From the NCBI RefSeq assembly GCF_001884135.1, contig NZ_MAOC01000091.1, positions 124,001 to 188,000 of the forward strand: a stretch of 64,000 bases of DNA, written 5' to 3'. This document shows, in pieces, positions 1,869-64,000 of this stretch. Source of the stretch: Bacillus nitratireducens. GTDB taxonomy: Bacteria > Bacillota > Bacilli > Bacillales > Bacillaceae_G. The translations under genes and the position numbers were made by a program. The stretch's first letter is position 1. Each line of letters starts with the position of its first letter. The notes beneath the pieces were generated by a model. It saw nothing but the letters and a program-made list of their open reading frames with translations, made no database searches and was not told the DNA's origin.

Positions 1869-3215
1869 TTGTTTCGTTCATTTACAAATGGATGTGTTGC
1901 CCTTGTGCAGCGTTTCTTGCCAGAACCGTTTATTTTATCATGTTTATTAACTGTTTTCGTTATCTTCTTCGGCATGTTTGCCACGCACCAAACACCGGTA
2001 GAAATGATTACGCACTGGGGCAATGGAATTTGGGGACTTCTCGCCTTTTCTATGCAAATGGCACTTGTACTCGTGACAGGATCTGCTTTAGCAAATGCCC
2101 CACTTATTAAAAAAGGGTTAACGAAAGCAGCGAAACTACCGAAAACGAATGGCCAAGGTATTATCGCAATTTCAATTGTAAGTTTACTAGGAGCATACAT
2201 AAACTGGGGATTTGGTATTGTTGTCTCTGTGTTATATGCAAAAGAAGTGGCAAGACAGTTAGAAGGATTAGATTATAGGTTAGCAATCGCTTCTTCTTAC
2301 TCTGGATTTCTCATTTGGCATGCAGGCCTTTCTGCTTCTATCCCTCTTACGTTAGCAACAGGCGGCGAAACTTTAATCAAAACGACGGCTGGAAGTATTA
2401 AAGAAGCGATTCCAATAACAGAAACTTTATTCTCACCATACGCTCTCGTTCCAGTTATTATCTTTTTAATTACGATGCCTCTCATTAATAAAGCAATGCA
2501 TCCGGATGAAAAACATACGATTACAGTGGATCCAAGTGTATTCCATGAAGAAGCTGCAGCTCAAGAAGTAGGACAAAAAACATTTGCTGAAAAAATGGAA
2601 AATAGTATGATTATTACACTTTGCATTGGATTATTAGGTCTTATTTATATTTTTAACTATTTTAGTACGAAAGGCTTTAACCTTACACTTGATATCGTTA
2701 TTTTTATGTTATTGATTGCGGGTCTTATTTTCCACCGTACTCCGATTCAATATATTCGCGCTTTCTCTGACTCAACAAAGAGCGCTTCTGGTATTTTACT
2801 TCAGTTTCCGTTCTATGCTGGAATTATGGGCATGATGATTGGAGCAAATAGTGAAGGGCTTTCGCTTGGGGGAGCCATTTCTACTTTCTTTATTAGCATT
2901 TCAAATGAAACCACATTCCCGCTCTTTACATTTTTAAGTGCTGGAATTGTTAATATTTTCGTTCCATCTGGAGGCGGCCAATGGGCAGTGCAAGCACCAA
3001 TTATGATTCCAGCTGGCGCTGAACTTGGTGTACCTGCTGCGAAAACAGCGATGGCAATTGCATGGGGCGATGCTTGGACAAATTTAATTCAACCTTTTTG
3101 GGCATTACCGGCATTAGCGATAGCTGGTTTAGGCGCTCGTGATATTATGGGATTTTGTGTTGTTAATTTACTTTATGCAGGATTTATCATTAGTCTGTGT
3201 TTCTTATTTATTTAA
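1869..3215 (+). CDS. Short-chain fatty acid transporter, AtoE family
   Basis: A 448-residue polytopic membrane protein with about 11-12 hydrophobic segments. It shows the family marks FVPSGGGQWAVQAPIM and the N-terminal FLPEPFILSCLLTVFVIFFGM, and has the usual AtoE length (about 440). AtoE proteins carry short-chain fatty acids such as acetoacetate or butyrate across the membrane. The start is TTG 1869, set by TAAGGAGGTT 9-10 nt upstream; the leader carries a short bcr1-like repeat. No catabolic genes adjoin it, so it stands alone. A hairpin terminator follows. Confidence 0.88.
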   Translation: MFRSFTNGCVALVQRFLPEPFILSCLLTVFVIFFGMFATHQTPVEMITHWGNGIWGLLAFSMQMALVLVTGSALANAPLIKKGLTKAAKLPKTNGQGIIAISIVSLLGAYINWGFGIVVSVLYAKEVARQLEGLDYRLAIASSYSGFLIWHAGLSASIPLTLATGGETLIKTTAGSIKEAIPITETLFSPYALVPVIIFLITMPLINKAMHPDEKHTITVDPSVFHEEAAAQEVGQKTFAEKMENSMIITLCIGLLGLIYIFNYFSTKGFNLTLDIVIFMLLIAGLIFHRTPIQYIRAFSDSTKSASGILLQFPFYAGIMGMMIGANSEGLSLGGAISTFFISISNETTFPLFTFLSAGIVNIFVPSGGGQWAVQAPIMIPAGAELGVPAAKTAMAIAWGDAWTNLIQPFWALPALAIAGLGARDIMGFCVVNLLYAGFIISLCFLFI

Positions 3216-5340: not shown

Positions 5341-5464
5341 GATAAGAAGAAGTTACGTATATCTTCGTCTTATCTCCCAGAACAAAAATGTTCTGCTGGA
5401 ATTAGCACCTGCATCGCGGTTGCTGGGTTTCATCGGGCCAGTCCCTCCACCTCTCTGGATAAGA
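5341..5464 (-). promoter_or_regulatory. SAM-I (S-box) riboswitch
   Basis: The minus strand shows the S-box core in order: AGAGAGGTGGAGGGACTGGC, CCGATGAAACCCAGCAACC, then GGTGCTAATTCCAGCAG and the P4 hairpin CAGAACA/TGTTCTG. P1 pairs TCTTATC (5458-5464) with GATAAGA (5368-5374). That 3' P1 strand can instead pair with CTTCTTCTTATC (5341-5352). When SAM holds P1, the freed CTTCTTCTTAT can pair with ATAAGAAGAA (5286-5295) beside AAAGGGG, which would favour translational control; that last part is inference. Confidence 0.95.
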
Positions 5465-5484
5465 AAATATTCACTTTATAATAA

Positions 5485-17636: not shown

Positions 17637-17728
17637 TACGGTAGTCAAAGTTAATTAAGCAAAAGATGAGGCCATTGCTAAATTATAGATCGGTAGCGGC
17701 TCAATACAACTAACGACCGAATACTTTA

Positions 17729-17800
17729 ACCCGTAGTCCAGTTCTTTCATTGGGAACTAGGTAGAAACGCTCGGACCATATTACCGAGTATATACGAGTG
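17729..17800 (-). promoter_or_regulatory. Purine riboswitch, guanine type
   Basis: P1 pairs ACTCGTA with TACGGGT; P2 is CTCGG/CCGAG around TAATATGGT; J2/3 is GTTTCTA; P3 is AGTTC/GAACT with the usual CCAATGAAA loop. The J3/1 bases read ACTAC, with C at the specificity position (U in adenine switches), so guanine or hypoxanthine is the expected ligand. Confidence 0.93.
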
Positions 17801-17826
17801 ATGTTATTTAAAATTATTATATTGGT

Positions 17827-48439: not shown

Positions 48440-48675
48440 AAATAAAAAGAGCCCCTCATCCTATAAAAAGGACGAGAAACTCCCGCGGTACCACCTTAAT
48501 TAGCTATCATTAGCTCACTTCATACTTCGATAACGTGAAGTAACCGTCTTTACCTACTCATTTCAGCGAGAAGCTCCAGAGCCCATTCCATATTCATCCC
48601 TTACTGATTTCCACCACACATCAGCTCTCTAAAAAGTTTCGAATATGTACTCTTCTCTTTCATTGCTTTTAGTTA
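48440..48675 (-). promoter_or_regulatory. T-box leader of trpS
   Basis: The minus strand contains the T-box core AGGTGGTACCGCG (48484-48497), which pairs with the uncharged tRNA end. It is followed by the terminator CTCGTCC/GGATGAG with GGGGCTCTTTTT (48440-48475). Stem I has the GAATGGGCTC segment, whose TGG is the likely Trp specifier. Low charging of tRNA-Trp would switch on trpS. Confidence 0.95.
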
Positions 48676-51371: not shown

Positions 51372-51382
51372 TTACCTTATAA

Positions 51383-51529
51383 AACCTTTTGCTGAGTCCA
51401 AATTTTGGAGCGGGGGAACCACTTATGTAGCTTTTTGCTACTTGGGGCGAATCTTTTTTAAGTAGGGAAACTCTCACTTCCCGAGTCCGACAGCTAACCT
51501 CGTAAGCGTAATGGGAGAGGAAGGTGCTT
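51383..51529 (+). promoter_or_regulatory. ydaO-type (c-di-AMP) riboswitch
   Basis: All conserved blocks appear in order: GCTGAGTCCAAA, GGAGCGGGGGAACC, CTTGGGGCGAATC, TAGGGAAACTCTC, CCCGAGTCCGACAGCTAACC, TCGTAAGCGTA and GGGAGAGGAAGG. The flanking CCTT/AAGG closes P1. The expression platform is less clear: a long hairpin TATAAATATGGG/CCTATATTTATA (51559-51602) ends just before the next ribosome binding site. Confidence 0.94.
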
Positions 51530-62468: not shown

Positions 62469-62771
62469 TTACCGTTTCAAACCAATCCATCCATTCAGTT
62501 CTGCTAACCCAATTAGTATTTCTCCACTACTCAATTGTAATTCTTTTGCAGTATGTCGCTTTATAATAACTCCACTTTCATCTGTACACTTACTTATTAT
62601 TTGCTCTGGTACCCAGCCTTTCCTATTATAATTCTCCTCCGAACAACGCACCCAGTTATCCAACTTTTTTGGTCCCTTATGCTTTTCACTAACAGAAACA
62701 AGATCTCCCTTCTCTAAACGAATTGGATCCGGATAATCACTGGCATGCAACTTAATAGCAATATTTTTCAT
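62469..62771 (-). CDS. SH3-like domain protein
   Basis: 100 residues. Two short SH3-type halves: YPDPIRLEKGDLVSVSEKHKGPKKLDNWVRCSEENYNRKGWVPEQII and VIIKRHTAKELQLSSGEILIGLAELNGWIGLKR. No signal peptide, so a cytosolic binding protein. It may run further, because the + strand C-terminal region beyond 62469 also encodes Trp/Val-rich SH3-like residues in another frame. Divergent from the EamA transcript. Confidence 0.75.
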   Translation of the reverse strand: MKNIAIKLHASDYPDPIRLEKGDLVSVSEKHKGPKKLDNWVRCSEENYNRKGWVPEQIISKCTDESGVIIKRHTAKELQLSSGEILIGLAELNGWIGLKR

Positions 62772-62800
62772 AACACTCTACAATAATCAGAAAATTAAGT

Positions 62801-62806
62801 TATAAT
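62801..62806 (+). promoter_or_regulatory. -10 element of the EamA leader transcript
   Basis: A perfect TATAAT with only a weak -35 (CTACAA, 17 nt upstream). Transcription from about 62813 gives a leader of about 164 nt. Confidence 0.6.
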
Positions 62807-62838
62807 GTCATTATAAAAAAAGAAAGGAGACTACGCTC

Positions 62839-62889
62839 ATGTACTACAACACTTCATTCGAAAACGATCAACCTGTAGTCCGTCTATAA
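62839..62889 (+). CDS. Leader peptide of the EamA transporter gene
   Basis: AAAGGAGA (62823-62830) precedes ATG 62839 by 8-9 nt. The frame encodes MYYNTSFENDQPVVRL and then TAA. Its last codons (GTC CGT CTA) are arm 1 of the hairpin set that controls the downstream ribosome binding site, the layout of erm/cat leader peptides. Confidence 0.75.
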   Translation: MYYNTSFENDQPVVRL

Positions 62890-62969
62890 TCTAAGACGGG
62901 CATTCATATAACAAGTGCACTATGCCTCGTCTTAGGGAATAAATCATAACCCTAAAAATAGACGGAGGT
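62879..62969 (+). promoter_or_regulatory. Translational attenuator of the EamA gene
   Basis: Arm 1 CCGTCT (62880-62885) pairs with arm 2 AGACGG (62894-62899). Arm 2, extended CTAAGACG-GGCAT (62891-62903), pairs with arm 3 ATGCC-CGTCTTAG (62922-62935), 13 bp with one bulge. Arm 3 CCTCGTC (62925-62931) also pairs with GAC-GAGG (62961-62968), which is the Shine-Dalgarno of the transporter, with TTAGGG/CCCTAA inside. 1:2 plus 3:4 is OFF; 2:3 is ON. No T-run follows, so control is at translation. Confidence 0.78.
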
Positions 62970-62976
62970 AATTCAA

Positions 62977-63864
62977 ATGAAACAAACAATTTTAGGTGCT
63001 ATATGTTTATCTCTAGCAGCAAGTATATGGGGCGGTATGTACGTTGTTAGTAAATACGTACTCGACTTTATCTCGCCACTTACACTCGTTTGGCTACGCT
63101 TTATTATCGCTTTTGTTGTTTTATATGTAATTTTGAAAATAACTGAAAAAAAGCAAAAGAAAAAAGTAACCATCCACAAAAAAGATTGGCTATTATTTGC
63201 TTGGATTGGATTCATCGGGTATTTCATTTCAATCACATGTCAATTTATCGGAACGAAATTATCCGATGCTCATACAGGCTCCTTAGTGACATCAGCTACA
63301 CCTGCATTTATGGTTATATTTGCAGCGCTCATTTTAAAAGAGAAACTAACTACTCGTAGACTTTTATCAACTATAATAGCGACACTCGGTGTCATTATCG
63401 TTATCGGATGGGATATTGAAATCGGCTCCTATTTTATCGGTTCAATCATTTTAGTTGGAGCTGCTATTACGTGGGCTTTACTGTCCATTTATGTAAAAAT
63501 CGCTTCAGCTCGATTTTCATCTTTAATTATTACAACGTACGCAATATTTTTTTCACTCTTTTTCATTACACCTTTTATGGTATGGGAAGTTCAAACAAAT
63601 CCTATTGAACATATGAACATGTATGTAGTATTGGGCGTACTCTATTTAGGAATCGTCTCAACTGCAGGTGCATTTTTCCTTTGGAATAAAGGATTAGAAT
63701 TAATGGATGCTAGCATCGGCTCATTATTTTTCTTCTTTCAACCTATCGTCGGTTCAATACTTGGCTGGCTCCTATTAAATGAGACGTTAAGCAGTAACTT
63801 TTTCATTGGTGGTATCCTTATTATATGTAGTGTTATAATTACTACTTTTGAAAAGCAAAAATAG
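62977..63864 (+). CDS. EamA/DMT family transporter
   Basis: 295 residues, ten membrane helices in two EamA repeats (AASIWGGMYVVSKYVLDFISPLTLVWLRFIIAFVVLYVIL and LLSIYVKIASARFSSLIITTYAIFFSLFFITPFMVWE..., FFFQPIVGSILGWLLLNETLSSNFFIGGILII). The family exports amino acids, metabolites and some drugs. GACGGAGGT precedes the ATG by 7-8 nt and is the arm-4 target of the upstream attenuator, so it is probably induced by something that stalls ribosomes on the leader. Confidence 0.93.
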   Translation: MKQTILGAICLSLAASIWGGMYVVSKYVLDFISPLTLVWLRFIIAFVVLYVILKITEKKQKKKVTIHKKDWLLFAWIGFIGYFISITCQFIGTKLSDAHTGSLVTSATPAFMVIFAALILKEKLTTRRLLSTIIATLGVIIVIGWDIEIGSYFIGSIILVGAAITWALLSIYVKIASARFSSLIITTYAIFFSLFFITPFMVWEVQTNPIEHMNMYVVLGVLYLGIVSTAGAFFLWNKGLELMDASIGSLFFFFQPIVGSILGWLLLNETLSSNFFIGGILIICSVIITTFEKQK

Positions 63865-63871
63865 TATAAAA

Positions 63872-63899
63872 AACAGGCAGAGACTTAGTCTCTGCCTGT
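63872..63899 (-). terminator. Terminator of the next gene (minus strand)
   Basis: ACAGGCAGAGA pairs with TCTCTGCCTGT; a T6 run follows on the minus strand. The stop codon of the partial gene lies in the loop. Confidence 0.85.
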
Positions 63900-64000
63900 T
63901 CGCATAATTGGCTCTTGGTCGTGAAAACCGATGCAAATTGGTATATTACTTTGTAATCCACTACATGCACTTATAAAACTACACACTGTTCTTGCAATTA
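63885..64000 (-). CDS. 3' end of a gene running off the window
   Basis: An open frame on the minus strand ends at TAA 63885-63887 in the terminator loop. It reads ...IARTVCSFISACSGLQSNIP, then ICIGFHDQEPIMRTGRD and stop. It is preserved to the window edge. Not recognised from this much. Confidence 0.6.
   Translation of the reverse strand, partial: IARTVCSFISACSGLQSNIPICIGFHDQEPIMRTGRD

Follow-up and report, generated by a model that had tools for sequence, protein, structure and literature searches.

Translational attenuation of erm resistance genes follows a common plan: a short leader open reading frame (ORF) with its own ribosome-binding site precedes the gene, and four RNA arms pair either as 1:2 and 3:4 or, alternatively, as 2:3, the ribosome-binding site of the gene being hidden in one of the two states. 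Nascent peptides can also sense metabolites, TnaC responding to tryptophan and SpeFL to ornithine. To our knowledge few ligand-sensing arrest peptides are known, and most of those we are aware of stem from single resistance genes or enteric bacteria. Here we compare these systems with a leader located upstream of an EamA/DMT-family exporter gene in a stretch of 64,000 nucleotides from Bacillus nitratireducens (contig NZ_MAOC01000091.1, positions 124,001 to 188,000; hereafter the window, to which all coordinates given without a locus name refer). Our evidence is computational throughout. The leader encodes a conserved F-E-N-D-x-P peptide, is linked to EamA genes and is followed by competing, co-varying helices, and its motif coincides with the codons at which a ribosome, averaged over all leaders, opens the ribosome-binding site of the exporter gene in a folding model. 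We propose, with a probability of a little over 80%, that the element acts by translational attenuation and that a nascent arrest peptide of a new class drives it.

The locus shares the short leader, the four-arm plan and the hidden ribosome-binding site with ermC and ermB (leader peptides ErmCL and ErmBL), whereas the target gene encodes an rRNA methyltransferase there and an exporter here, and the peptides differ. Unlike the erm leaders, the present leader was found in many bacterial genome records and in three plasmids that were read. The cat and cmlA genes likewise rely on the stalling of a ribosome on the leader to expose a concealed ribosome-binding site, but use a single hairpin, in contrast to the several arms and the rival helix found here at all but two loci (L074 and L079, see below). 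TnaC and SpeFL are longer peptides and follow a different RNA logic. What they share with our proposal, according to excerpts of PMC8429421 and PMC10314930, is the idea that nascent peptide and ribosome together form a small-molecule sensor, termination being the step that is inhibited. In the macrolide efflux operon the leader peptides MefAL and MsrDL control efflux and protection genes, which resembles the arrangement at our locus, and MsrDL, a macrolide sensor, consists of MYLIFM only; these peptides act, however, by transcription attenuation (excerpt of PMC10314930), whereas a scan of the window found no terminator-like site between leader and EamA gene. ErmBL is arrested about ten residues into the leader, with Asp-10 in the P site, a depth that is also predicted here, and erythromycin enriches general XP(X)-type pauses (both from an excerpt of PMC6238534); as analogies these precedents would fit the proposed mechanism rather than prove it.

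We regard the locus as erm/cat-like in architecture, a description that refers to the plan as read from the sequence and implies no class membership. In the same sense, and only in this sense, the term 'erm-like' had been appropriate in an earlier reading of the window made from the sequence alone (the sequence-only reading). Within the known erm/cat plan we rate the element as a new family of arrest peptides, attached to a target gene of a new type. Among the matches listed in searches of open-licence papers neither the motif nor a leader on an EamA/DMT gene was described. Rfam 15 gave no match at gathering score over the leader stretch, a match with E 2.6 on the other strand being below the gathering score. 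A 21-aa query, which makes for a weak test, yielded no leader match in NCBIfam and an unrelated match below the cut-off (E 0.039) in Pfam.

Leader ORF and pairing arms at the window locus

All elements of the switch are located on the plus strand. The leader ORF extends from 62839 to 62889 (ATG at 62839, stop codon TAA at 62887-62889) and comprises 16 sense codons (MYYNTSFENDQPVVRL). Its ribosome-binding site, AAAGGAG, occupies 62823-62829, with the last base nine bases before the leader ATG. Both elements had been recognized in the sequence-only reading, which overlooked the key fact, the conserved F-E-N-D-x-P peptide. In the window the motif reads F-E-N-D-Q-P (62857-62874), with D being residue 10 and the Pro codon located at 62872-62874, and we propose these codons as the arrest site. 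The leader codons after Pro form arm 1 (62878-62885), which the fold places in the last leader codons, as had been claimed. Arm 2 (62890-62903) is the partner of either arm 1, via 62894-62901, or arm 3 (62922-62937), which in turn pairs with arm 2 in the on state and with arm 4 (62960-62970) in the off state. Arm 4 contains the ribosome-binding site GGAGG (62964-62968) of the EamA gene (62977-63864, 295 aa). The arms were assigned from the folds and from the arm-swap tests described below (1:2 for arm 1, 2:3 for arm 3, 3:4 for arm 4, and the tests with either partner for arm 2).

In the fold of the free RNA (62839-62990) helices 1:2 (62878-62885/62894-62901) and 3:4 (62923-62932/62960-62970) both form. 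The structure has an energy of -34.7 kcal/mol (z -4.9), and none of 200 shuffled sequences was equally stable. Helix 3:4 pairs four of the five GGAGG bases while one G (62964) is bulged out; the earlier claim that arm 3 can bury the GGAGG thus holds for four bases, not for the whole box. As a stand-in for the cover provided by a ribosome on the leader, we omitted the bases before 62885, which resulted in a 2:3 helix of 14 pairs with one bulge (62890-62903/62922-62936) and left the GGAGG unpaired in the centroid structure. A rival 2:3 helix that frees the site had been foreseen, although with 13 pairs, and the absence of a terminator had been noted correctly.

The four-arm plan of the sequence-only reading is supported by these folds and by the co-variation of the arms, 1:2 and 3:4 closing the site and 2:3 opening it. 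Seen against erm and cat, the leader ORF appears, from its own ribosome-binding site and its synonymous changes, to be a genuine reading frame directly upstream of the gene; mutually exclusive helices, one of which hides the ribosome-binding site, are found in the folds and the arm-swap tests; and a stall that masks arm 1 is predicted to open the site on average, as judged from 75 leaders and a shuffle control.

Peptide conservation and co-variation of the arms

Bacterial genomes were searched with the exporter protein and the best 80 of 431 EamA loci were taken. A leader matching the pattern [FWYLQ]E[NYWFHK]D.P at most eight codons before a stop was located directly upstream of the EamA gene in 44 of the 80, the loci having been gathered by protein similarity alone. 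In these 44 leaders and that of the window the core is F-E-N-D-x-P, with x being Gln or Val in all but three of the 45. Asn and Phe are replaced three times each, and Glu, Asp and Pro are invariant, but forced to be so by the scan pattern. The codons vary synonymously, as Glu, Asp, Asn and Phe each appear with both of their codons and Pro with all four, and the codons after Pro are free to vary. Divergent motifs in which E, D and Pro are kept occur in two Aneurinibacillus loci, FEYDVP in L055 (ORF at 2884) and QEWDVP in L056 (ORF at 2896).

Altogether, 239 records contained 82 distinct short motif ORFs, 75 of which (window included) lie directly upstream of EamA. These 75 leaders are made up of the window, the 44 from the set of EamA loci, one from a DNA search of G013's family and 29 from motif searches. 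Six of the remaining seven ORFs look like chance; the seventh is a leader that is separated from its EamA gene by 1.8 kb (L015:1152-3000), with an inserted ORF in between which, from its motif, we take to be a TnpB-type transposase. In the 75 leaders D is residue 10 in 46 cases, 9 in 17 and 11 in 9 (72 of 75 at 9-11), a numbering that depends on the start codons, which for leader and exporter alike were chosen by script according to the strength of the ribosome-binding site. Three to seven codons separate Pro from the stop, and in L025 and L037 the whole leader is M-L-F-E-N-D-Q-P followed by four codons.

Co-variation was assessed in 72 of the 75 leaders (without L074, L079 and L198), from which 40 representatives with under 80% similarity in arms 1 and 2 were kept. 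The pairing energy of the arms belonging to the same leader was compared to that of arms exchanged between species in 2000 permutations. Own arms paired more stably than swapped ones for 1:2 (-12.1 versus -8.8 kcal/mol; 0/2000; z -7.5), 2:3 (-16.9 versus -11.5 kcal/mol; 0/2000; z -10.0) and 3:4 (-14.0 versus -11.4 kcal/mol; 0/2000). In the first 3:4 test the choice of arm 3 by its pairing with the arm 4 of the same leader had introduced a bias; when arm 3 was chosen anew for each pairing, the result was still 0/2000 (z -7.7). The signals of 1:2, 2:3 and 3:4 persist when leaders of the Gln type and the Val type are tested separately, and the combinations 1:3 and 2:4, which the plan does not predict, gain little (71/2000 and 78/2000). 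Fixed windows without any picking of arms gave a corresponding picture: a pairing signal links the 12 nt that follow Pro to the 40 nt downstream of the stop (-11.4 versus -7.6; 0/2000; z -9.7), and the 12 nt of the NDxP codons show no downstream pairing signal (510/2000). Amino acids are thus kept up to Pro and only pairing is kept after it, indicating that selection on the peptide ends, and selection on the RNA begins, at the Pro codon.

In two Desulfosporosinus loci (L074:2920-3003 and L079:2905-2988) the leader stop is just 27 nt away from the exporter start, and by eye the codons that follow Pro are linked by a single hairpin to the base of the ribosome-binding site. These loci may represent a minimal version of the switch that follows the same logic with one stem. 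Taken together, the comparative results place the switch architecture far beyond chance. The sequence-only reading had staked its case on conservation of the leader and co-variation of the arms, and in distant relatives it was not refuted, with the leader present in 44 of 80 loci and 1:2, 2:3 and 3:4 co-varying.

Proposed ribosome stalling, inducer and alternative explanations

In our folding model the mean unpaired probability of the GGAGG was calculated with a ribosome at each codon of the leader, its footprint being represented by removal of all bases as far as +16 from the P site; folding at equilibrium approximates co-transcriptional folding only roughly. Averaged over the 75 leaders, among them L198 despite its misplaced exporter start, the predicted openness was highest when x occupied the P site (0.38), followed by Pro in that site (0.32), whereas free RNA (0.10) and termination (0.09) gave low values. 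The gain over the larger of the free and the termination value amounted to +0.25, as compared to -0.03 to -0.12 in a control with 20 dinucleotide shuffles per leader. For the 40 representatives the peak was found at offset 0, -1 or -2 from Pro when the 3' edge of the ribosome was set to +13, +16 or +19. In the window, openness was 0.20 in free RNA, 0.43 with x and 0.39 with Pro in the P site, 0.51 one codon further on and 0.20 at later codons. On average, peptide motif and RNA model would thus place the stall at the same codons, D-x-P. In 32 leaderless EamA loci (without L005, L015, L071 and L078) mean accessibility was 0.27, versus 0.10 in loci with a leader, a noisy control in which a value of 0 is obtained for five Exiguobacterium loci (L024, L027, L028, L029 and L031) and others; the ribosome-binding site of a divergent gene within the stretch may be the reason.

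We suggest that in the off state ribosomes would complete the 16-codon leader, allowing 1:2 and 3:4 to form, with 3:4 concealing the ribosome-binding site of the EamA gene. In the on state a ligand located in or near the peptidyl-transferase centre or the upper exit tunnel would arrest the chain ending in F-E-N-D-x at the codons for D-x-P, probably when x occupies the P site and Pro moves into the A site. Arm 1, which begins just after the Pro codon, would be masked by the ribosome halted there, arm 2 would then capture arm 3, and the ribosome-binding site would be released. The exporter made in this way would export the ligand or a related compound. The arrest, its dependence on a ligand, the nature of this ligand and the substrate of the exporter are the parts of this mechanism that we infer.

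A chain of about 7-12 residues extends only to the upper tunnel, which favours a ligand bound there, be it an antibiotic or a metabolite. By our own estimate a ribosome-binding natural product receives about half of the weight, an exported metabolite a little under a third and any other inducer about a fifth. Slightly better than even are, in our view, the chances of a more specific proposal, namely that F-E-N-D-x-P defines a new class of ligand-sensing arrest peptide with a core of perhaps eight residues (M-L-F-E-N-D-Q-P). This peptide would be the sensor of a single exporter family in at least three classes of Firmicutes, and its ligand would be a natural compound that is not known so far to bind the ribosome or to be a substrate of DMT exporters. 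The motif is widespread and its limits are sharp, selection acting on the peptide as far as Pro and on the RNA beyond it, and this makes the arrest site, the minimal core and the ligand directly testable. The identity of the inducer would hint at the substrate for a large group of EamA exporters and perhaps at a new ligand site of the bacterial ribosome.

Several results weigh against an arrest-driven attenuator. In 36 of the 80 EamA loci the scan detects no leader, a number that falls to 33 when L005, L015 and L071 are credited with one, showing that the leader is dispensable. Our comparisons cover distant relatives of the window, the best protein match being 71% identical. Among the arm pairings 1:4, which is superfluous to the plan, beats the swaps as well (z -3.5; 0/2000 overall); its signal is weaker within the two leader types (21/2000 and 53/2000) and stays below that of the three predicted helices. 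RNAalifold recovered 2:3 from 21 Val-type leaders (subset A2), with no pair changed on both sides. In the folding model a gain above 0.15 was reached by only 44 of the 75 leaders (mean of 4.5 in the shuffles), and a gain of at least 0.15 by just 20 of the 40 representatives, the model being an equilibrium one; in several leaders, among them L032, L061, L062, L063, L067, L077 and L228, the site is shut at nearly all positions tested.

The alternative that survives best leaves the attenuator unchanged and differs in the inducer alone: the arrest might respond to a metabolite of the cell's own, such as an amino acid, which the exporter removes. We consider this possible rather than probable. The occurrence of the leader with a single gene family over what we take to be Bacilli, Clostridia and Negativicutes agrees with a metabolite, as do the amino-acid exporters among the nearest named transporter models, all of which are below cut-off, whereas the chain at the arrest is only about ten residues long, and about seven in the two M-L-F-E-N-D-Q-P leaders, as compared to the much longer TnaC and SpeFL, and such a short chain has little left to form a pocket. 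TnaC provides a precedent (excerpt of PMC8429421), but TnaC and SpeFL inhibit termination (excerpts of PMC8429421 and PMC10314930), whereas here the site is predicted to reclose at termination (0.09). Arrest at the stop codon of the TnaC/SpeFL type would also fit less well with the residues before the stop, which are not conserved; as the reclosing is a prediction of the folding model, such an arrest is made less likely rather than disproved.

It is unlikely that leader and hairpins just set a basal or temperature-dependent rate by coupling or as a thermometer, with no arrest taking place. Such a device would account for a site that is firmly shut in free RNA (mean 0.10), but it leaves unexplained why the peptide is conserved only as far as the Pro codon, at which arm 1 begins, and why mean opening is maximal at this very codon. 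We consider it very unlikely that shortage of an amino acid or charged tRNA stalls the ribosome at a motif codon, as in classical biosynthetic attenuators. Although in the model the position of the stall alone is enough to open the site, the window leader lacks runs of one codon, the whole F-E-N-D-x-P string is kept while its codons are exchanged synonymously, Pro appearing in all four codons, and an exporter would be an odd target of a starvation response. Finally, a peptide acting in trans next to incidental RNA structures, which would agree with conservation at the peptide level, is hardly credible as three helices co-vary and 75 of the 82 motif ORFs adjoin EamA, which leaves L015 and the six ORFs read as chance.

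Distribution of the leader, the exporter gene and its surroundings

Judging from their record titles, the 80 EamA loci presumably belong to Bacilli, Clostridia, Negativicutes and other classes. Beyond the 44 leader-bearing loci, degenerate leaders were identified by eye in L005 (LEKYRP) and L071 (LDNDVP). L005, whose EamA gene starts at 3001, also appears to have similar downstream arms about 120 nt before that start, and its LEKYRP is a natural variant that could tell which motif residues matter. On a quick EamA tree with several long branches, in which L005, L015 and L071 were scored as leader-bearing, the leader has been lost or gained repeatedly, with 15 changes on 93 rows versus a shuffled mean of 27.4, and Gln-type and Val-type leaders largely track two parts of the tree. 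The best DNA match among 19 genomes of G013's family is 70% identical.

Searches with the motif pattern only gave matches in 35 of 398 genomes of a phylum and in 32/118, 7/28 and 29/43 genomes of two families and an order; among genomes already known to have an EamA locus the pattern was present in 7 of 19 and 10 of 10. Many pattern matches are not leaders: the phylum search returned 39 places, and of the 35 that were read two are a leader followed by EamA. A tblastn search of plasmids with the exporter resulted in 11 records. Four were read, and three of these, plasmids of Bacillus badius, Priestia megaterium and Niallia taxi (L269, L270 and L271), carry a FENDVP leader with the EamA gene, indicating that leader and exporter travel together; the fourth, a Selenomonas plasmid, has no such leader. 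Megablast of the locus against plasmids gave no match. In viral contigs 30 stretches with the V-type pattern contained 12 hits at most eight codons from a stop, none of which was, by eye and with no EamA profile run, a leader preceding EamA.

The exporter (62977-63864, plus strand) matches Pfam EamA PF00892 in two stretches (3e-48; 163.9 bits at a curated cut-off of 28.2) and is a member of this family. The NCBIfam models 2A78, YddG and others also match, every one below its own cut-off, and several of the nearest named transporter models describe amino-acid exporters. No solved relative of the exporter was found in the PDB at E 0.01, and this search gave no identity for leader or switch. Apart from EamA no neighbour family recurs in more than eight of the 45 leader-bearing loci (the 44 and the window), so that the gene neighbourhood gives no clue to the substrate. 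In five Anoxybacillus/Parageobacillus loci (L010, L011, L012, L019 and L025) a second EamA gene follows the first in the same direction.

Upstream of the leader a consensus scan identified the promoter-like site TCTACA-18-TATAAT (62777-62806, plus strand; 10/12 matches); the region has six sites of this kind as compared to 5.6 expected, which is at chance level. A small divergent gene with an SH3-type domain (62469-62771, minus strand) adjoins this putative promoter. Directly 3' of the exporter gene lies a hairpin with a 14-pair stem (63871-63901, no strand assigned) that has a terminator score on the minus strand only. Elsewhere in the window, matches at or above the Rfam gathering score comprise a SAM riboswitch (5367-5465, minus strand), a purine riboswitch (17714-17817, minus strand), a T-box leader (48465-48672, minus strand) and a c-di-AMP riboswitch (51380-51524, plus strand).
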